Shown here: in pieces, positions 41,020 through 61,350 of the stretch
How positions within the stretch are numbered: position 1 is the first letter of the stretch
Layout: each line of letters starts with the position of its first letter
Source: Candidatus Gastranaerophilales bacterium
Lineage (GTDB): Bacteria > Cyanobacteriota > Vampirovibrionia > Gastranaerophilales > Gastranaerophilaceae
DNA: 64,000 bases
NCBI GenBank assembly: GCA_947625305.1
Contig: CANQNW010000003.1
Location: 62,001-126,000, forward strand
Direction of reading: 5' to 3'
Translations under genes and position numbers: made by a program
Notes under the pieces: model-generated
The model's database searches: none
What the model was told of the DNA's origin: nothing
What the model saw: only the letters and a program-made list of their open reading frames with translations

Positions 41020-41820
41020 ATGAATAAAACAATTGAATATATTAACGAAAAAACGGGAAATTTTATACCTGAAATAGGTATAATACTTGGTTCAGGCTTA
41101 GGTGAATTTGCTGATGAACATAGAACCATTGCAATTCCATATAATGAAATCCCGAATTTTGAAACATCCCACGTACAAGGGCATAAAGGATTATTGGTTT
41201 TTGCTCAAATCCAAGGGAAAAATGTTGTTATGATGCAGGGAAGATACCATTTTTATGAAGGCTATTCAATGCAGACGGTAACTTTCCCCGTTAAAGTAAT
41301 GAAAAAACTCGGAGTAAAAACATTAATCATAACCAATGCGGCAGGTGCAGTTAATCCTGATTTTACCCCCGGAGATTTAATGTTTATAACAGACCATATA
41401 AATTTTATGGGAACAAATCCTCTAATAGGTAAAAACGATGATACTTTAGGAACTCGTTTCCCCGATATGAGCGAAATATACTCAAAAGAGTTAATAAATA
41501 AAGCCGTCCAAACCGCAGAAAACCTGAATATTAAATACCAAAAAGGAATATATGCGGCAACAACAGGGCCGAGTTATGAAACTCCCGCAGAAATTAATAT
41601 GTACAAAATCTTAGGAGCAAGCGCAGTCGGTATGTCTACCGCTCCCGAAGCTATTGTTGCAAATTATGCTGGCATGAAAGTTCTTGGAATAAGCTGTCTT
41701 ACCAATTATGCCGCAGGTGTTTCAAATACCCCCTTAAATCATCAAGAGGTCATTGAAACAGCAAATAAAGTTAAAGAAAACTTTAAAAACTTATTATCGG
41801 AACTTATTAAGATTATATAA
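41020..41820 (+). CDS. Purine nucleoside phosphorylase
   Basis: Splits purine nucleosides with phosphate. The 266-residue protein is of the trimeric PNP family. It has GIILGSGLGEFAD, a phosphate-site VQGHKG, GRYHFYEGY, TNAAGAVNPDFTPGDLMFITDHINFMGTNPL, and TTGPSYETPAEINMYKILGASAVGMSTAPEAIVANYAG. The asparagine at LTNYAAGVS supports use of guanosine and inosine. It is related to, but distinct from, mtnP at 1273. Confidence 0.92.
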   Translation: MNKTIEYINEKTGNFIPEIGIILGSGLGEFADEHRTIAIPYNEIPNFETSHVQGHKGLLVFAQIQGKNVVMMQGRYHFYEGYSMQTVTFPVKVMKKLGVKTLIITNAAGAVNPDFTPGDLMFITDHINFMGTNPLIGKNDDTLGTRFPDMSEIYSKELINKAVQTAENLNIKYQKGIYAATTGPSYETPAEINMYKILGASAVGMSTAPEAIVANYAGMKVLGISCLTNYAAGVSNTPLNHQEVIETANKVKENFKNLLSELIKII

Positions 41821-41881
41821 AGGCACTATAACTCTGTGCTAAACTTATATTATAGGGGATAAGAAGTACAGGAGAAAAATT

Positions 41882-43000
41882 ATGATTCCGATTTTAGATT
41901 CAAAAAGACAATATGCAAAAATAGGCAAAGAAATTGAAAAAGAAGTTCTTGAAGTCTTGGCTTCAGGCTCATATATTTTAGGAAAGCACAATAAAGCTTT
42001 TCAAACGGAATTTGCAGACTTTGTAGGCACAAAGTATTCCGTAGGCTTAAACTCGGGAACTGACGCACTGCACTTAGCATTAAGAGCATTAAATATCGGC
42101 AGAGGCGATGAAGTTATAACAACAGCATTTACATTTGTAGCAACAGCAAGCGCAATAGGTCTTGCAGGTGCAACTCCCGTATTTGTTGATATTAACCCTG
42201 ATACATTTAATATTGACGCAAATAAAATTGAAGCGGCTATTACTCCGAAAACAAAAGCTATCATTCCCGTTCATTTATACGGACAGCCTGCAGAAATGGA
42301 TAAAATAATGGATATAGCAAAAAGACATAACTTAAAAGTTGTTGAAGATTGCTGTCAGGCTATCGGTGCGGAATTTAAAGGACAAAAAGTCGGTTCATTC
42401 GGCGATTTCGGATGTTTTAGTTTTTATCCGACAAAAAATTTAGGCGGTATGGGCGATGGCGGTATGATTACCTGCAATGATGAAAATCTTTATAACAGAG
42501 TTATCGCATTAAGAAACCATGGCGGTGCCATCAGATATTATCATGATGAATTAGGTGTAAACTCAAGACTTGACGAAATCCAAGCAGCTATCTTAAGAGT
42601 TAAAATGCCATATGTAAATGAATGGAACGCAAAAAGAAGAGAAAATGCTTACAGATATAATGAAATGTTCTCTAAATATCCTGAAATCTTAACTCCTAAA
42701 GAAGTTGAAAATTCTTACTGCGTATATCACCAATATACGATAAGAATTGAAAATCGAGATAAAGTTCATCAGCTTTTACAGGAAAACGGTATCGGCGCAA
42801 TGATTTATTACCCCGTTCCATTGCATCTGCAAAAATTACATAAAGATTTAGGCTACAAAGAAGGCGACCTTCCGTTGACGGAAAAAGATACAAAACTTGT
42901 TATGTCGCTTCCTATGTTCCCTGAAATAACACCCGAAGAACAGCAAACAGTAGTTGATACCGTTGTTAAATGCTTAAATATGACTAAACAAGCAGTATAA
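41882..43000 (+). CDS. DegT/DnrJ/EryC1/StrS-family PLP aminotransferase
   Basis: Sugar aminotransferase family member of 372 residues, probably making an amino sugar for surface glycans. The PLP lysine is in FYPTKNLGGMGDGGMI. Other blocks are GLNSGTDALHLALRALNIGRGDEVITTAFTFVATASAI, IPVHLYGQPAEMDKIM, VEDCCQAIGAEFKG and YHDELGVNSRLDEIQAAIL. The substrate is unknown. It ends the core block; a strong terminator follows and the accessory region begins. Confidence 0.92.
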   Translation: MIPILDSKRQYAKIGKEIEKEVLEVLASGSYILGKHNKAFQTEFADFVGTKYSVGLNSGTDALHLALRALNIGRGDEVITTAFTFVATASAIGLAGATPVFVDINPDTFNIDANKIEAAITPKTKAIIPVHLYGQPAEMDKIMDIAKRHNLKVVEDCCQAIGAEFKGQKVGSFGDFGCFSFYPTKNLGGMGDGGMITCNDENLYNRVIALRNHGGAIRYYHDELGVNSRLDEIQAAILRVKMPYVNEWNAKRRENAYRYNEMFSKYPEILTPKEVENSYCVYHQYTIRIENRDKVHQLLQENGIGAMIYYPVPLHLQKLHKDLGYKEGDLPLTEKDTKLVMSLPMFPEITPEEQQTVVDTVVKCLNMTKQAV

Positions 43001-43013
43001 CAATTTAATCTAT

Positions 43014-43048
43014 AAAAAAGACTGCCTTATTAAAGGCAGTCTTTTTTA
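43014..43048 (+). terminator. Strong Rho-independent terminator after the DegT gene
   Basis: Stem AAGACTGCCTT (43018-43028), loop ATT, and AAAGGCAGTCTT followed by a T run. It marks the boundary between core genes and the accessory locus. Confidence 0.9.
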
Positions 43049-43056
43049 TTTGCACC

Positions 43057-43066
43057 GGGGGGGGGG
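43057..43066 (+). repeat. Run of ten G
   Basis: G10 in intergenic DNA, inside a sequence (TTTGCACC, G10, TAAAAGCAAG) that parallels the G-run promoters at 44066 and 59651 but lacks their TATAAT box. It is probably a decayed or recombined copy of that promoter joined to the short repeat at 43072. Confidence 0.8.
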
Positions 43067-43071
43067 TAAAA

Positions 43072-43099
43072 GCAAGTAGGTTTGATTAGCGGAGTATAG
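43072..43099 (+). repeat. Short dispersed repeat, copy 1
   Basis: GCAAG-TAGGTTTGATTAGCGGAG-TATAG. Consensus over the copies is close to GCAAGGTTGGGTTAGCGGAG. Other copies are at 44751, 48113, 57009 (minus strand) and 58300 (minus strand). All lie next to Kelch, XRE or SGNH genes of the accessory regions. Confidence 0.7.
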
Positions 43100-43168: not shown

Positions 43169-43190
43169 ATCTGACTTGTGCCAAGTTTTT

Positions 43191-43685
43191 TTATTCTTTT
43201 GTGTCGTCTTTCATTTTGAAAGTCCAAACCATATCAAATCTCGGTTTATCTCCTGTCGGGGATAATTTTGCAACTTCTCCTACCTTATCGCCGTTATTAT
43301 CAACCAAGTCAAAAATGTTGTTAGAGTTATTCCCGTTATTTTTTATGTAGTATGTTCGTGGAAAATCTACAGGCAAGTTACCGGAATTATTTAAAATATC
43401 GTCTGTATCATCTCGCATAGGCTGAGTATAGGTAATTGCGAAATAAGGTTTATCATCTCCCATGCCTTCAATAGCTCCGACGTCATAGTGCCTGTTTGGG
43501 TCTAAGTTATTAAATTCCACTTGCCCATCTGTGCCTTTTTTAAACCCCGTGACTTGCGTACCTGTTTCAGAGTCAAAAAGCCCATATGCTCTTTGGGCAC
43601 AAGCACCATTTATTTCAATTTTTCTCGGGTTAGGAGTTAAAACAACCTGTTCAGGTGTTTTGTTTATAAATTTATTTTCATTCAT
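43191..43685 (-). CDS. Family A accessory protein, copy 1
   Basis: Protein of 164 residues, no signal peptide or membrane segment, function unknown. It belongs to a four-member paralog set in this window (also 44874, 45382, 60856). Conserved blocks: QVVLTPNPRKIEI, AQRAYGLFDSETGTQVTGFKKGTDGQVEFNNLDPNRHYDVGAIEGMGD, NSGNLPV, IFDLVDNNGDKVGEVAKL and TFKMKDDTKE. The motif GD-x-KP-x(4-7)-W/Y-T-x2-M-x-DDT occurs twice, so the protein appears to be two related units of about 70-80 residues. The start has AAAGGAC upstream. It is followed upstream on the same strand by the XRE gene at 43772, as in the mirrored copy. Confidence 0.7.
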   Translation of the reverse strand: MNENKFINKTPEQVVLTPNPRKIEINGACAQRAYGLFDSETGTQVTGFKKGTDGQVEFNNLDPNRHYDVGAIEGMGDDKPYFAITYTQPMRDDTDDILNNSGNLPVDFPRTYYIKNNGNNSNNIFDLVDNNGDKVGEVAKLSPTGDKPRFDMVWTFKMKDDTKE

Positions 43686-43771
43686 AATAAAAGTCCTTTC
43701 CGTTAACTTTATTTTATTATTTCAAATACTTCCGATTTTTATATTAATTTTACAGTTTTTTTACATTGATT

Positions 43772-43999
43772 TTATTCAAAAATGAAAAATTTATATTCGG
43801 GGATATCTAGGGCAGAAGAAATATTAAATAATAAATCCATACTCATATTTCTTCTTGCGGTTTCAACTTTAGCAATATGTTCTCTTGAAACATCAACCAA
43901 TTCTGCAAGCTGATTTTGAGAAAGATTTTTTTGTTTTCTGTATTTGGCAATATTGGTGCCAAGTAATTTCTTTTTAGCATTCTTATTTAACATAGCCAT
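43772..43999 (-). CDS. XRE-family regulator, left copy
   Basis: Helix-turn-helix protein of 75 residues, almost all domain: LGTNIAKYRKQKNLSQNQLAELVDVSREHIAKVETARRNMSMDLLFNISSALDIPEYKFF. It differs from the right copy at 59755 in two residues (D/N in SSALDIP, and the last E/K). The DNA of the two is identical through about the first 190 bases and then differs at several silent sites, which suggests gene conversion. It is divergent from the G-run promoter at 44066 and probably represses it or itself. Confidence 0.88.
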   Translation of the reverse strand: MAMLNKNAKKKLLGTNIAKYRKQKNLSQNQLAELVDVSREHIAKVETARRNMSMDLLFNISSALDIPEYKFFIFE

Positions 44000-44065
44000 A
44001 TTGTGAACTAAAAAGTTATATTTGTATGTAGTCTGTTTGGTAACAAAGATACTAAATTTTTAAAT

Positions 44066-44096
44066 TTGCTTCGGGGGGGGGTAAAAGTGGTATAAT
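44066..44096 (+). promoter_or_regulatory. G-run promoter, left copy (candidate phase-variable switch)
   Basis: TTGCTT (44066-44071), a 19-bp spacer containing nine G (44073-44081) and an extended -10 TGG-TATAAT (TATAAT at 44091-44096). The spacer is two bases longer than the 17-bp optimum, so loss or gain of G by slippage should alter strength. The same layout with the same spacer length is found on the minus strand at 59651-59681. It drives the broken Kelch gene starting at 44126. Confidence 0.75.
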
Positions 44097-44125
44097 GATT
44101 TTGTTTACGAATTTAGGTGGTTTTT

Positions 44126-44744
44126 ATGAGTAATGATAAAGAGAATATAGAACAAGAAAAAGTTAATAAACAAAGTTGGTGGAAGAAGTTGTTGGGTTTA
44201 AAGCAAATATCATGTCAAATATTGTTAATATTGGCTTTTATATGTCATAATAATATTTTTTGAATATTTAAAAGGTTCATACGGTTCAGAAGCCGTAGTT
44301 CTAAATGAAAATGAAATATTTTTACCATCACATTTCGATGAAGTTTTAAACCTAAAAACAGGTTTACATGATCAAATTCCAATTCCCGCACAAATTTATG
44401 ATATAAAAAAAAGAAAATTTAAACCATCTGATGAAGGAAATGCAGAAATATATGACCAAAAAACAAATTCTTATACTTCTGTAGGTTCTTTGAATGTAAA
44501 AAGATGCTATCATTCATCAATATTACTTTCAAATGGGAAAGTATTAATTGTTAATGGAGCAAAAGGACCCGGTGGAGCAACTGATAGAGAAACAAGAAAA
44601 GCAGAGTTGTTTGATCCCGAAACTAATAAATTTGAATTAATATCATCAACTAAACTTGAAAGATGGGCATTCTTTGTAGAGAAAATTTCAGATAATAAAA
44701 TACTAATTCATAATTACAATGGATGGGAAATTTATAAATATTAA
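44126..44744 (+). pseudogene. Kelch-like membrane-anchored protein, frameshifted
   Basis: The first frame gives a 45-residue product: MSNDKENIEQEKVNKQSWWKKLL, then a membrane segment ISCQILLILAFICHNN. It stops with TGA at 44261. The next frame continues without a gap as EYLKGSYGSEAVVLNENEIFLP and so on to 44744. It includes a Kelch-type unit (YHSSILLSNGKVLIVNGAKG, AELFDPETNKFELIS). Removing one T from the T6 run at 44256-44261 joins the frames into one reading frame of about 205 residues. It may be a pseudogene or a slippage-controlled gene. RBS AGGTGG precedes the ATG. It is a relative of the genes at 55908, 57047 and 58352. Confidence 0.75.
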
Positions 44745-44873: not shown

Positions 44874-45362
44874 TTATTTCTTTGTGTCATCTTTCATTTT
44901 GAAAGACCAAATATAATGGATTTTAGGTTTATCGCCTGTCGAGGTTAGGTTTGCAATTTCCCCAACTTTTTCGCCTTTAGAATCTACCATATCCAATACA
45001 TTGTTATTGCCGTTATCTTTTATGAAGTAGACATTAGGATATTCTACAGGCAAGTTCCCTGAATTTTTTAGTATTTCATCTGTGTCATCTTTCATACGTA
45101 CAGTCCAAATTAATGCAAATTGAGGTTTTTCATCACCCATACCTTCTATGGCTCCGACGTCATAGTGTCTGCTTGGGTCTAAGCCGCTAAATTCCACTTG
45201 CCCCTCTGTGCCTTTTTTAAAATCATTGACTTGTGTTCCTGTTGCAGAGTCAAAAAGCCCGTATGCTCTTGCTGGATGTGCACTATTTATTCTGATTGTT
45301 CTTGGGGTAGGGGTTACAACAACTTGTTCTTGCGGTTGATTTAAAGAAGTATTTTGTTCCAT
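44874..45362 (-). CDS. Family A accessory protein, copy 2
   Basis: Protein of 162 residues, closely related to the copies at 43191 and 60856. The two units are clearest here: the first ends GDEKPQFALIWTVRMKDDTDE and the second ends GDKPKIHYIWSFKMKDDTKK. The segment before each (YGLFDSATGTQV... and YFIKDNGNNNVLDMVDSKGEKV) also aligns loosely. No signal peptide, no known domain. It is 19 bp downstream of the short paralog at 45382 on the same strand, so they form an operon. The start has AAAGGAC upstream. Confidence 0.7.
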   Translation of the reverse strand: MEQNTSLNQPQEQVVVTPTPRTIRINSAHPARAYGLFDSATGTQVNDFKKGTEGQVEFSGLDPSRHYDVGAIEGMGDEKPQFALIWTVRMKDDTDEILKNSGNLPVEYPNVYFIKDNGNNNVLDMVDSKGEKVGEIANLTSTGDKPKIHYIWSFKMKDDTKK

Positions 45363-46632: not shown

Positions 46633-46672
46633 TTGCCTCGGGTGGGGGTGGGGAGGGTAAAAACGGTATAAT
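46633..46672 (+). promoter_or_regulatory. Interrupted G-rich promoter, third copy
   Basis: TTGCCT (46633-46638), a 28-bp spacer of G runs broken by T and A (GGGTGGGGGTGGGGAGGG), then TAAAAACGG and TATAAT (46667-46672). Flanks match the promoter at 44066 (TAAATTTGC before, ATTTTG and a GTTTAG-like RBS region after). The interruptions would stop slippage and the 28-bp spacer should be inactive, so this copy may be locked off. The four G runs also fit an intramolecular quadruplex. Confidence 0.6.
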
Positions 46673-46676
46673 TATT

Positions 46677-46948
46677 TTGGTTGCAAGTTTAGATGATTTT
46701 ATCAGTGAAGATGAAATACATAAAATAATTGAATTTAATTTGACGGAGAGTTTATATTACAGGTTTGCAGTAATAACTTTTGCAATTTGGCTTGCTATTG
46801 AAAGTATTTGTGCTTTTTTAAATTCAGGGGGGGGGGATCTAAATACGGTTATGCAGTTGCAGTTAACGGACTATTATGTTTAATTAATTGCATTAAAGCT
46901 TTGCTTTGTTATAAAATTATGAGAAAAGTAAACAGGTATTCTCCTTAA
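46677..46948 (+). pseudogene. Small membrane protein with a G10 run inside the coding sequence
   Basis: In the present sequence the frame is open from TTG 46677 to a stop at 46883 (68 residues): DDFISEDEIHKIIEFNLTESL, a membrane helix FAVITFAIWLAIESICAFL, then NSGGGDLNTVM. The helix is followed by G10 (46827-46836). With 8 or 11 G the frame would instead continue as GSKYGYAVAVNGLLCLINCIKALLCYKIMRKVNRYSP to a stop at 46948, adding a second helix and a basic end. That frame looks more like a real protein. The start is uncertain; no good RBS is seen. It may be phase-variable or simply broken. Confidence 0.5.
46881..46920 (+). repeat. 40-bp direct repeat, left copy
   Basis: TAATTAATTGCATTAAAGCT and the following 20 bases recur at 48232-48271 with about five changes. 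The two copies bracket the SGNH-like gene at 46999. The left copy encodes part of the alternative C-terminus of the membrane protein at 46677. Confidence 0.7.
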
Positions 46949-53944: not shown

Positions 53945-54043
53945 AGTGGAGCGGAGCGAAACTTGAAGAAGTGAATGCCCGGAATGAGCAGACACGGCAG
54001 TGTGGCGAATGACAGGGCAGAGAGTAAGCAAAATCCAAGACAG
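53930..54043 (+). mobile_element. Small palindromic insertion element with inverted-repeat arms
   Basis: Arms GGATTTTGC (53932-53940) and GCAAAATCC (54028-54036), followed by AAGACAG (54037-54043). The interior is GC-rich and purine-biased. The module at 28856-28953 has the same plan, read on the minus strand: GGTTTTTACGTAGAG, a purine-rich interior, GAGTAAAAACC, AAGACAG. No coding capacity; this fits a MITE or REP-like element moved in trans. Confidence 0.75.
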
Positions 54044-54752
54044 TGATGATGAGGGAAAATTTACTTATAAAAACGGGGGAAGTTCTAATTCAAATCCTCT
54101 GCTTTTGGGCGGGGTTCAATATAACGAAAAAAAAGAAAACAGAGAAGATATTCTCTATAATGATAATTCTTTTAAAGATAATCTATCAAATTATAGAAAC
54201 AAATTACTTGATTTCTTAGGAGATAATTTAGAAAGAGAAGAAATATTATACTCAAATATATCAGAATTGGAAAATAAAATAATTCAAGTTACAGTAAATA
54301 AAATAGATGATTTGAAAGAAAAACTAAATAATATTATAAGAAAATTAAGTCATCCTGGAATGATTTATTCTAATCAATCTCAAAAAGTGCTAAATGAAGC
54401 TCAAAAATGGAATAATGCACTTGGAGATTTTGCAAGAAATTATGAGGATATGATAGATGCTAATACAATAGGTGGAGATAAGTATTTACATGCAAAAGCA
54501 AATTGTCAGGCAGCTCAACGAGGTCGTAATGGAGAAATTATTTCTTATGTTTTAAGTACCTATAGGGAATTGGAAGAAGGAACAAGAAAAGTAGTATTTA
54601 GAGGAGAAAATTTGTTTGAACAGCTACAAGATGCAAGAGAAGATATTCAAGCTAACAATGAAGGAAGAAATTTAGGGAAACTAAATCCGAATATTAATTG
54701 TAAATATTTATTGAACGATAGACGTCCAAATGGTCTTGACGACAAATATTAG
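54000..54752 (+). CDS. Toxin-like protein with an Rhs-type C-terminal domain, 5' end displaced
   Basis: About 240 residues of continuous frame; the GTG at 54000 lies inside the inserted element, so the original start was probably 53900. After a GKFTYKNGG segment comes a helical, lysine- and glutamate-rich middle. The C-terminal domain has IGGDKYLHAKANCQAAQRG, STYRELEEGTRK and QDAREDIQANNEGRNLG. The pattern DKY-H-x-A-x-C-x(5)-G ... D-x(2)-AN-x(2)-GR-x2-G recalls a domain I know from the ends of Rhs and wall-associated proteins, but I cannot name it with certainty. The next gene could be its immunity protein. Confidence 0.55.
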   Translation: MWRMTGQRVSKIQDSDDEGKFTYKNGGSSNSNPLLLGGVQYNEKKENREDILYNDNSFKDNLSNYRNKLLDFLGDNLEREEILYSNISELENKIIQVTVNKIDDLKEKLNNIIRKLSHPGMIYSNQSQKVLNEAQKWNNALGDFARNYEDMIDANTIGGDKYLHAKANCQAAQRGRNGEIISYVLSTYRELEEGTRKVVFRGENLFEQLQDAREDIQANNEGRNLGKLNPNINCKYLLNDRRPNGLDDKY

Positions 54753-58351: not shown

Positions 58352-59542
58352 TTAAAACTGTAATCTATATGCATATTCACTAAAATTAGATAATGAATGT
58401 TTTTTATATTGTGAACCACAAAGTATTAAAATACTGTTATCTTCTAATTTAATAAATCTATATGGCAAATATAATGGAATTTTATTATTAATAATATATG
58501 ATTGATTTGTCTTAATATTGAATACTTCTATTGCACTATAATCTTCATTGTATCCTTCCCATCTTACAGTACCAATTATTATATTTTCATTATTAAGTTC
58601 AATATTATAACTTGGATTTGTATTTGTTAATGTACAAATAATTTGTGAAGTATTAGTTCTAACATTATATTTTTCTATTGTTTTTACGGGATTATTATTT
58701 TTATTTAAACCACCCCAAACAAGAATATTTTCACTATCAATTTTTTTTGCTTGAACTTTATCTACTCTCCCATTTTTAAGATTACCAATATATGAAAATT
58801 TATTTGCATTAATATTAAATTTATATATTCTACTAAAATCAATTCCCGAGTTATTATTAATATTTTTTTGATTGCGATTTCTAGTTCCATTGCCAAATAT
58901 AAGGATATCTCCATCTTCAAGTTCGATTAAAGCACGATTTTTACCATTTTTTACTATATCATCACAAAACTCAAGTTTATAAAACTCCATTTTATCAGGA
59001 TAAAATCTATAACTCTTGTATTCATCAACAATTAATACACTTCCATCTTTCAATTTTTTCATTGATACATTATGTCCAAAATTGGTAGGAGCATTTTCAA
59101 TCTTGTTAAAAGTCTCAGTTTTATAATTATAAATAGTTGGAGTACAGCGATAACCGCCTACTAAAAATACATCACCATTATTTAAAATAACCGATGCATG
59201 ATTTTGCATATCATTCATTAATACTCTTTGTCCACCAACTTCCCCATATTTAATATTACCTTTTGGCTCTCGAAATGTATTGGTTTTAGGGTTATAAATT
59301 TCCCCAAATACATAAGGCTCTTGTTGAATTCCTCCAGTAATTAATACTTCTCCAGTAGGTAATAGAATTCCATTTTGTTCTTGTCTCGGTTTTAATACTT
59401 TTAATTTTGTTATTTTAATATTTCTAAATCCATTTTCTATTGCAAAAGTATCATTTAAACTTGTAATTAAAAAAAATAAACAAATTATAAATAAACATAT
59501 AAATATTTTTTTTAAATTTATTATTTTGTTACTCATCATCAT
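58352..59542 (-). CDS. Kelch-like secreted protein, copy 3
   Basis: Protein of 396 residues. Its start (ATGATGATGAGTAAC) overlaps the TAA of a 26-residue leader ORF as TAATG, so translation is coupled. Signal: MSNKIINLKKIFICLFIICLFFLITSL. Repeats: GILLPTGEVLITGGIQQEPYVFGEIYNPKTNTF, HASVILNNGDVFLVGGYRCTPTIYNYKTETFNKI, MKKLKDGSVLIVDEY, IELEDGDILIFGNGTRNR, NILVWGGLNKNNNPVKTIEKYNVRTN, IKLEDNSILILCG. Six or seven blades are likely. It is controlled by the minus-strand G-run promoter at 59651. Confidence 0.78.
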   Translation of the reverse strand: MMMSNKIINLKKIFICLFIICLFFLITSLNDTFAIENGFRNIKITKLKVLKPRQEQNGILLPTGEVLITGGIQQEPYVFGEIYNPKTNTFREPKGNIKYGEVGGQRVLMNDMQNHASVILNNGDVFLVGGYRCTPTIYNYKTETFNKIENAPTNFGHNVSMKKLKDGSVLIVDEYKSYRFYPDKMEFYKLEFCDDIVKNGKNRALIELEDGDILIFGNGTRNRNQKNINNNSGIDFSRIYKFNINANKFSYIGNLKNGRVDKVQAKKIDSENILVWGGLNKNNNPVKTIEKYNVRTNTSQIICTLTNTNPSYNIELNNENIIIGTVRWEGYNEDYSAIEVFNIKTNQSYIINNKIPLYLPYRFIKLEDNSILILCGSQYKKHSLSNFSEYAYRLQF

Positions 59543-59622
59543 TAATCCCTATCTTTTTTCAACAAATTTAACCAACTTTTATTTTTCTTTTCTTGTTCTA
59601 TATTCTCTTTATCATTACTCAT
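59542..59622 (-). CDS. 26-residue leader ORF, coupled to Kelch-like copy 3
   Basis: ATG at 59622 with CAGGTG upstream, encoding MSNDKENIEQEKKNKSWLNLLKKDRD. The first twelve residues equal those of the Kelch pseudogene at 44126, where they lead into a membrane segment. Here the frame ends after 26 codons and the true Kelch gene starts in the TAATG overlap. It is either a leader peptide or the remnant of a gene fused by deletion to the Kelch gene. Confidence 0.6.
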   Translation of the reverse strand: MSNDKENIEQEKKNKSWLNLLKKDRD

Positions 59623-59650: not shown

Positions 59651-59681
59651 ATTATACCACTTTTACCCCCCCCCAGCGCAA
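59651..59681 (-). promoter_or_regulatory. G-run promoter, right copy (candidate phase-variable switch)
   Basis: On the minus strand: TTGCGC (59681-59676), a 19-bp spacer with nine G (59674-59666), extended -10 TGG-TATAAT (59656-59651). Spacer length, G number and flanking TAAAAGTGG equal those of the left copy at 44066, while the -35 half has diverged by a T-rich insertion upstream. It points to the leader ORF and Kelch-like copy 3. Confidence 0.75.
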
Positions 59682-59754: not shown

Positions 59755-59982
59755 ATGGCTATGTTAAATAAGAATGCTAAAAAGAAATTACTTGGCACCA
59801 ATATTGCCAAATACAGAAAACAAAAAAATCTTTCTCAAAATCAGCTTGCAGAATTGGTTGATGTTTCAAGAGAACATATTGCTAAAGTTGAAACCGCAAG
59901 AAGAAATATGAGTATGGATTTATTATTCAATATTTCTTCCGCACTCAATATACCCGAATATAAATTTTTCATTTTTAAATAA
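59755..59982 (+). CDS. XRE-family regulator, right copy
   Basis: 75 residues, identical to the gene at 43772 except N for D in SSALNIP and a final K. It is in inverted orientation relative to that copy and divergent from the G-run promoter at 59651. The intergenic DNA also matches (TAGTTCACAATATGGCTATG and the GACTACATACAAATATAAC stretch, with an AACT-AAAA-AGTT-type palindrome that could be its operator). Downstream, a toxin-antitoxin pair separates it from its family A gene. Confidence 0.88.
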   Translation: MAMLNKNAKKKLLGTNIAKYRKQKNLSQNQLAELVDVSREHIAKVETARRNMSMDLLFNISSALNIPEYKFFIFK

Positions 59983-59995
59983 TTTAAAACTAAAC

Positions 59996-60301
59996 TTACA
60001 TTTGTTTTAATCTTTTTTCATCATTATCCATGCCTTGTTTTAATAAAGATTTAATATAAGTTTGATAAGGCATACCTAATTCTTTTGCGATTTTTTTTGC
60101 TCTTGCAATTTCAAATTCAGACCACCTAAAATTAACTTTAGGATATTTTTTCTTTACATCTGCCTCTGCTTTGGTGATAACTTCATCAATGTTATGAATA
60201 TTACCAAATTCATCAATCAATTCAGATGTTTCTTCAACAATTTGTTCTGTTGAATTTGCAAGCATTTCTTCAATTTGTTCTTTGCTAAATTTTTCTTTCA
60301 T
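59996..60301 (-). CDS. CopG-like antitoxin
   Basis: About 101 residues from the ATG at 60301, which has GGAG upstream. The C-terminal part NFRWSEFEIARAKKIAKELGMPYQTYIKSLLKQGMD is the ribbon-helix-helix-type region found in CopG/BrnA-like antitoxins. The acidic N-terminus may bind the toxin. It starts 2 bp after the toxin gene, toxin first. Proposed role: neutralise the toxin and repress the shared promoter at 60603. Confidence 0.75.
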   Translation of the reverse strand: MKEKFSKEQIEEMLANSTEQIVEETSELIDEFGNIHNIDEVITKAEADVKKKYPKVNFRWSEFEIARAKKIAKELGMPYQTYIKSLLKQGMDNDEKRLKQM

Positions 60302-60303
60302 AA

Positions 60304-60591
60304 TTATCTCCAATCTGAAAAAGCAGTTATTATAAATATATAAGAGTCTTTTTCTTTTAATTTCATATAATATAGTGTAATATCACAATCAGCTGAATAT
60401 GCTTCATATCTTTTATATTCTTCATTCCATTCTTCTTCTGTTATAGTGAAGAATGCACGAATAGCTTCATTTAGGGTTATTAAATGTCTATGCCATATAT
60501 GTGGTTCATATTGGTTATTTATTGGATTTAAGTCTAATTTAAACTTAAATGTATAGTTACCAACTTTTTTAATAAGATATTTACAATTCAT
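60304..60591 (-). CDS. Putative toxin of a type II toxin-antitoxin pair
   Basis: About 95 residues: MNCKYLIKKVGNYTFKFKLDLNP, HIWHRHLITLNEAIRAFFTITEEEWNEEYKRY, ending KLKEKDSYIFIITAFSDWR. Size, order and the final IFIITAF strand resemble RelE/BrnT-fold toxins, but I cannot place it in a named family. The frame is open to a GTG at 60627, inside the promoter; the ATG at 60591 lies only a few bases after the expected transcription start, so a nearly leaderless mRNA is likely. Confidence 0.65.
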   Translation of the reverse strand: MNCKYLIKKVGNYTFKFKLDLNPINNQYEPHIWHRHLITLNEAIRAFFTITEEEWNEEYKRYEAYSADCDITLYYMKLKEKDSYIFIITAFSDWR

Positions 60592-60602
60592 ATAAATATC
60601 AT

Positions 60603-60631
60603 AACATATTGTACGCACTTTGTACACCCAA
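60603..60631 (-). promoter_or_regulatory. Promoter with an internal operator for the toxin-antitoxin pair
   Basis: On the minus strand: TTGGGT (60631-60626), a 17-bp spacer, TATGTT (60608-60603). The spacer is filled by TGTAC-AAAGTGC-GTACA (60626-60610), a perfect 5-bp inverted repeat, the expected place for autorepression by the antitoxin complex. Confidence 0.6.
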
Positions 60632-60855: not shown

Positions 60856-61350
60856 ATGAACGAAAATAAATTATTAAATGACTACACTGAACAAGTTGTT
60901 TTAACTCCCAACCCGAGAAAAATTGGAATAACTCATGCTTATGCCCAAAGAGCATACGGACTTTTTGATTCAGAGACAGGCACACAAGTTACAGGGTTTA
61001 AAAAAGGCACAGATGGGCAAGTTGAATTTAATAACTTAGACCCAAACAGGCACTATGACGTTGGTGCTATAGAAGGTATGGGAGATGAAAAACCTGTATT
61101 TGCAATAAATTGGACTGAAAATATGATAGATGATACAGACACTATATTAAAAAATTCAGGCAACCTGCCTGTTATATATCCGGCTACATATACAATAAAA
61201 GATAATGGCAGCAATTCCAACAACATTTTTGACTTGGTTGATGATAATGGCGATAAAGTAGGAGAAGTTGCAAAATTAGCACCAACCGGCGATAAACTGC
61301 AAATCAATTTTATATGCTCTTTCAAAATGAAAGACGATACACAAAAATAA
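60856..61350 (+). CDS. Family A accessory protein, copy 3
   Basis: 164 residues, very close to the copy at 43191: QVVLTPNPRKIGITHAYAQRAYGLFDSETGTQVTGFKKGTDGQVEFNNLDPNRHYDVGAIEGMGDEKP, then KNSGNLPVIYP, NIFDLVDDNGDKVGEVAKLAPTGDK and CSFKMKDDTQK. The upstream DNA (ATTTGAAATAATAAAATAAAGTTAAC, then AAAGGAC) is also shared with that copy. It is in mirrored orientation. Function unknown. Confidence 0.7.
   Translation: MNENKLLNDYTEQVVLTPNPRKIGITHAYAQRAYGLFDSETGTQVTGFKKGTDGQVEFNNLDPNRHYDVGAIEGMGDEKPVFAINWTENMIDDTDTILKNSGNLPVIYPATYTIKDNGSNSNNIFDLVDDNGDKVGEVAKLAPTGDKLQINFICSFKMKDDTQK

Follow-up and report, generated by a model that had tools for sequence, protein, structure and literature searches.

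The run of nine G residues at positions 44073-44081 (+ strand) of the window, by which we mean the whole 64-kb stretch of Candidatus Gastranaerophilales DNA analyzed here, is probably the slippage-prone spacer of a σ70-type promoter, one copy of a cassette placed before genes for Kelch or other exported proteins, whose transcription would be expected to depend on tract length. Our verdict is that this is a real, nonrandom promoter tract of the slippage type within a large contingency repertoire. In the mechanism that we posit, the genus would have set the cassette before membrane-anchored Kelch β-propeller genes and some other exported-protein genes; replication slippage would then gain or lose G residues, shifting the distance between the -35 and -10 elements one base pair at a time (observed spacers are 18, 19, 20, and 21 bp), and each shift would be expected to raise or lower transcription of that single gene. 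Each cassette copy would shift independently, yielding a mixed population. Lying upstream of the expected transcription start, the tract would act on transcription only and not on the reading frame, and the extended -10 may render the length effect graded rather than strictly on/off.

Read directly from the sequence, the promoter at 44066-44096, the left of two copies discussed below, consists of TTGCTT (44066-44071, + strand), a -35-like hexamer; C at 44072; the G9 tract; TAAAAGTGG (44082-44090); and TATAAT (44091-44096). The spacer is 19 bp, and the hexamer is part of an extended -10, TGGTATAAT (44088-44096, + strand), of the form TG-G-TATAAT with TG one base 5' of the hexamer. A ribosome-binding site, AGGTG at 44115-44119, and an ATG at 44126 follow (44115-44128, + strand), the start codon lying 30 bp past the -10; transcription presumably starts from this promoter. 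The elements claimed in the earlier note (TTGCTT, a 19-bp spacer with G9, and an extended TATAAT) are thus exact. As in porA and vlp, a homopolymer sits between -35 and -10, the former assigned here by conservation: the position of the TTG is conserved in the cassette family, which makes this the putative -35. A consensus promoter scan omits the site because it allows spacers of 16-18 bp only, so its silence is uninformative, and a genome-wide search for a -35 spacing preference at other TATAAT sites gave no usable, clear signal.

The G9 run at 44073 is not a product of chance. At 31.9% GC, the window holds four G/C runs of 9 or longer where a first-order model of the 64 kb expects 0.05, which upholds the claim that a G9 tract is unexpected in DNA this rich in A and T. 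G-run lengths go from 1 to 5 and then only to 9, 10, and 10, with one C9 and nothing between, and GGGGGGG matches 14 times, against 1.4 in dinucleotide shuffles. The excess extends to the whole genome (1.97 Mb), in which 71 runs of G8 or longer are present vs about 8 expected and 65 runs of G9 or longer vs about 1.7 expected, both expectations being extrapolated from window composition. Across the genus, 24 of 41 genomes carry 16-119 runs of G9 or longer and the remaining 17 carry 0-9. There are 14 occurrences of the motif GGGGGGGGTAAAA in the same genome and as many as 22 in others of the genus, whereas its reversed control is absent throughout. That the runs are assembly or sequencing artefacts is a very remote prospect, which we reject: homopolymers are error-prone and the comparison is one of assemblies only, but the runs recur in those 24 separate assemblies while being rare in the other 17, and they occupy a fixed position in a promoter as well as conserved domains of surface genes.

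The promoter position is indeed narrowly defined. We collected 46 copies of a recurrent cassette, TTGCNNN-G(8-11)-TAAAARTGG-TATAAT, the left promoter among them. TATAAT starts exactly 9 nt past the tract in the 46 copies with G8 or more, 41 of them have TTG at position -7 relative to the tract as compared with 4 of 93 tracts lacking a nearby TATAAT (p about 5e-25), and in most copies an ATG lies 28-29 nt past TATAAT. A genus-wide search with TAAAARTGGTATAAT, a pattern that demands neither a G run nor a -35, found 59 sites; with a slightly looser pattern, the 60 distinct sites in the fetched loci comprised 44 with G8-11, 5 with a shorter or interrupted G tract, and 11 with no G run. The 71 tracts of the window's own genome were not preselected by a -10 pattern, and among these, 11 have TATAAT within 12 nt on the G strand, 5 of them at offset 9, vs 3 tracts with TATAAT on the C strand (1.4 expected). 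The cassette hardly occurs beyond a single genus of Candidatus Gastranaerophilales. When named genomes were scanned with the pattern, the hits fell in Candidatus Gastranaerophilales from rabbit gut with two exceptions: a contig assigned to a "Bacilli" bin from that series of samples (L176), where a binning error is plausible, and a weak hit in a "Clostridia" bin from goat cecum (L177). A second promoter type, with a perfect TTGACA, a 16-bp spacer holding G10, and TATAAT, was observed on the minus strand of L031 (2662-2671; G000:C4:162698-162707).

Tract length varies at homologous promoters. Among nine homologous pairs of promoter plus gene start (at least 85% identical over 100 nt), seven differ in the number of G residues. 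The left promoter has G9 here and G10 in G012, at 94% identity, and the whole left locus carries G9, G8, G10, or an interrupted tract in other species; a Kelch promoter has G8 here vs G9 in G026, within 309 bp at 91% identity. Matching to two near relatives covered 14 of the 71 tracts, and 7 of these 14 differ in length, this Kelch promoter among them. The differences at the same promoter are differences between species; the picture is not one of a G9 fixed in every strain, and this comparison of related genomes supports the earlier proposal of spacer change by slippage. Slippage within one population is presumed. The spacing itself departs from what had been proposed, that slippage would move the promoter toward or away from 17 bp: measured from the conserved TTG, spacers are 18 bp (n = 3), 19 bp (n = 22), 20 bp (n = 14), or 21 bp (n = 2), and no cassette copy has 17 bp. 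The mode, 19 bp, exceeds the customary 17 bp. Two interrupted tracts (L117 and L138) keep 19 bp, a hint that about 19 bp may be a working spacer here, in combination with a G-rich spacer and an extended -10.

We also considered that the G run could be a fixed element of the promoter, structural or bound by a regulator, for example an operator for a divergently encoded HTH protein or a stiff spacer, with length mattering little and no switch. Beside both promoter copies in the window lies a divergent gene for a 75-aa XRE-type HTH regulator (43772-43999, - strand, HTH_3, E 3e-13; second copy, 59755-59982, + strand), and family tracts are mostly 9 or 10 long. Homology to the regulator region is, however, absent from most cassettes, few loci matching beyond the promoter; lengths differ among homologous promoters; and runs of like length distribution occur inside genes that have no promoter there. 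We consider a fixed part unlikely and favor the slippage-prone spacer, with expression predicted to follow tract length.

Kelch_6 matches were found in 21 of the 38 proteins scanned downstream of cassettes, single proteins match WG repeats, TPR, or LptF/G, and all but one of the 38 (37) contain a strongly hydrophobic segment within the first 100 residues; these targets may be surface exposed. The gene behind the left promoter is itself broken (44126-44744, + strand). Its ORF retains the family leader MSNDKENIEQEK and the membrane helix but is cut short at 45 aa by a frameshift at a T6 run; a 162-aa Kelch remnant follows in the next frame (44256-44744) and aligns first to residues 45-90 and next to 304-405 of a 405-aa paralogue that is intact, a skip from 90 to 304 that reveals the loss of an internal block as well. 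The idea that the left promoter precedes a membrane-anchored Kelch gene thus holds for the family to which the gene belongs, but the gene is frameshifted and internally deleted. Driving only a broken remnant, the left copy would itself switch to probably little effect and is a weak example; experiments would be better served by the right copy and the paralogues. The right copy (59651-59681, - strand) reads TTGCGC-T-G9-TAAAAGTGG-TATAAT, again with a 19-bp spacer, and is followed by a 26-aa leader ORF starting at 59622 and a 396-aa Kelch protein (58352-59542, - strand; Kelch_6, E 1e-14). A third, decayed promoter copy (46633-46672, + strand) has an interrupted tract, GGGTGGGGGTGGGGAGGG, at 46640-46657, which also has the form of a G-quadruplex motif. 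Several further genes neighbor these promoters. Three paralogues of about 162-164 aa adjoin Kelch promoters in inverted and direct copies (43191-43685, 44874-45362, and 60856-61350), two of the three having been scanned against Pfam with no match, and beside the right promoter a gene for a CopG-type antitoxin and a neighboring 107-aa ORF (59996-60627) form a possible toxin-antitoxin pair.

The segment 48219-56914 is inverted relative to the near relative G026 (G026:C6 103932-110403; 96-98% identity, bounds approximate) and is flanked by inverted cassettes at 43188-44180 and 61353-59571 that are 83-91% identical, making recombination between the cassettes a reasonable inference, with approximate breakpoints. 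Upstream, the flank 41805-43072 is 99.4% identical to G026. Within it, at 43050-43066 (+ strand), the left half of a promoter (TTGCACC) and a G10 tract are fused to a foreign tail with no TATAAT after it, the G run at 43057 being the junction; at this site, G026 has an intact G11 promoter. Recombination between cassettes could exchange the gene beneath a promoter, and one may ask whether this is what the cassette is mainly for, the shared promoter and leader letting Kelch genes swap, delete, and invert, with the G run a by-product or joining point. The inversion between cassettes, the foreign tail joined at 43057, and the like upstream flanks that precede different downstream genes all fit such a role. 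As the main explanation we nevertheless deem it improbable, since it leaves unexplained the many single-gene runs, the precise promoter geometry, and the one-base length differences; it is, moreover, compatible with a slippage-prone promoter spacer rather than exclusive of it. The inverted segment carries HIT, SDR, outer-membrane efflux, HlyD, and MFS genes, among others. The ORF at 54000-54752 encodes a serum amyloid A domain (PF00277, E 2e-18), which one would not expect in a bacterium.

Many runs lie inside genes. An MBOAT gene is split at a G8 tract, the profile matching at 71-254 in one frame and at 260-329 in another, and its orthologue in G010 has G9 and reads through; another gene is open at G10 here and broken at G9 in G010. 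In an ATP-grasp gene, the split falls at a G10 tract, at profile position 91/92; this gene encodes a GARS_A, PurD-like protein (L030 907-2206; G000:C4 near 50759), and one would not expect a relative of a purine enzyme to be switchable. Within the window, a G10 tract at 46827-46836 (+ strand) puts a small membrane-protein gene out of frame, whereas the orthologue in G026, with G5, is open. The GLF, DegT, and glycosyltransferase genes that bear tracts are open. Frames that are open in one genome and broken at the orthologous site of another are thus found at these other tracts and not at the promoter tract. ORFs at the 71 tracts include those for LicD, WbqC, RgpF, Polysacc_synt_2, GT2, GT8, FkbM methyltransferases, and radical SAM enzymes, gene content that is usual for contingency loci. 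A broader picture is conceivable, although we advance it only tentatively and think it somewhat more apt to be wrong than right: a contingency system on the scale of the genome in these uncultured, non-photosynthetic relatives of cyanobacteria from the gut, in which one slippable cassette copied before a large family of Kelch surface proteins, dozens of poly-G tracts in glycan-synthesis genes, and gene swapping by recombination and inversion would mean that slippage and shuffling jointly set the surface coat.

Loss of mismatch repair as the cause of the runs in this genome was rejected, MutS1 and MutL being intact; slippage rates would accordingly be lower than in species deficient in mismatch repair. 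In G033, which has the most G9 runs of the genus (119), MutS1 is present and MutL was not found at 96% completeness. A single origin of the high-run state is not supported: on the MutS tree it needs about six changes, at least four of them on well-supported branches, and this scatter implies that high run number was gained or lost repeatedly. Viral carriage was likewise discarded, with no match in viral contigs.

The architecture has precedents, and the earlier statement that promoter tracts of this kind switch surface proteins in other bacteria agrees with what is known of porA and of Mycoplasma vlp. In porA of Neisseria meningitidis, a poly-G tract of about 9-11 between -35 and -10 likewise undergoes single-base changes and controls an envelope protein, the amount of surface protein falling 2.2-fold with 10G and 13-fold with 9G relative to 11G (PMC3639595); porA differs in being one gene rather than a many-copy cassette, its length effect is proven whereas ours would follow by analogy, and both phylum and protein are unrelated. 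The vlp genes of Mycoplasma hyorhinis form a surface multigene family with one promoter homopolymer per gene, in which spacer changes switch transcription (PMC10502178, PMC2268961), but there the tract is poly-A, the products are lipoproteins, and switching is proven, in contrast to poly-G and Kelch propellers in an unrelated phylum. Helicobacter canadensis resembles the present case in having poly-G tracts genome-wide, most in genes and few in promoters, and frameshifts in some of the assembled genes, methyltransferase and glycosyltransferase genes among them; it has 29 coding-region-associated tracts, with length variation in reads, as compared with 71 runs here, from assemblies, and, unlike here, no uniform promoter cassette is described (PMC2823697). 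A literature search, with most subscription papers outside its reach, returned no earlier report of phase variation in the Gastranaerophilales lineage, in line with the suggestion that the lineage is new to this phenomenon. What is new here is the lineage, the scale, and the inversion of a window segment between promoter copies.

Phase variation by slippage is known chiefly in host-adapted pathogens and mycoplasmas. The contrast within the genus, in which some genomes have 0-9 runs of G9 or longer and others have 16-119, provides natural comparisons of gain and loss. Phages, host antibody, and glycan niches are possible selective forces. If our reading is true, gut relatives of cyanobacteria vary their surface through the chance mechanism that those pathogens use, on this scale and as commensals that possess MutS and MutL.
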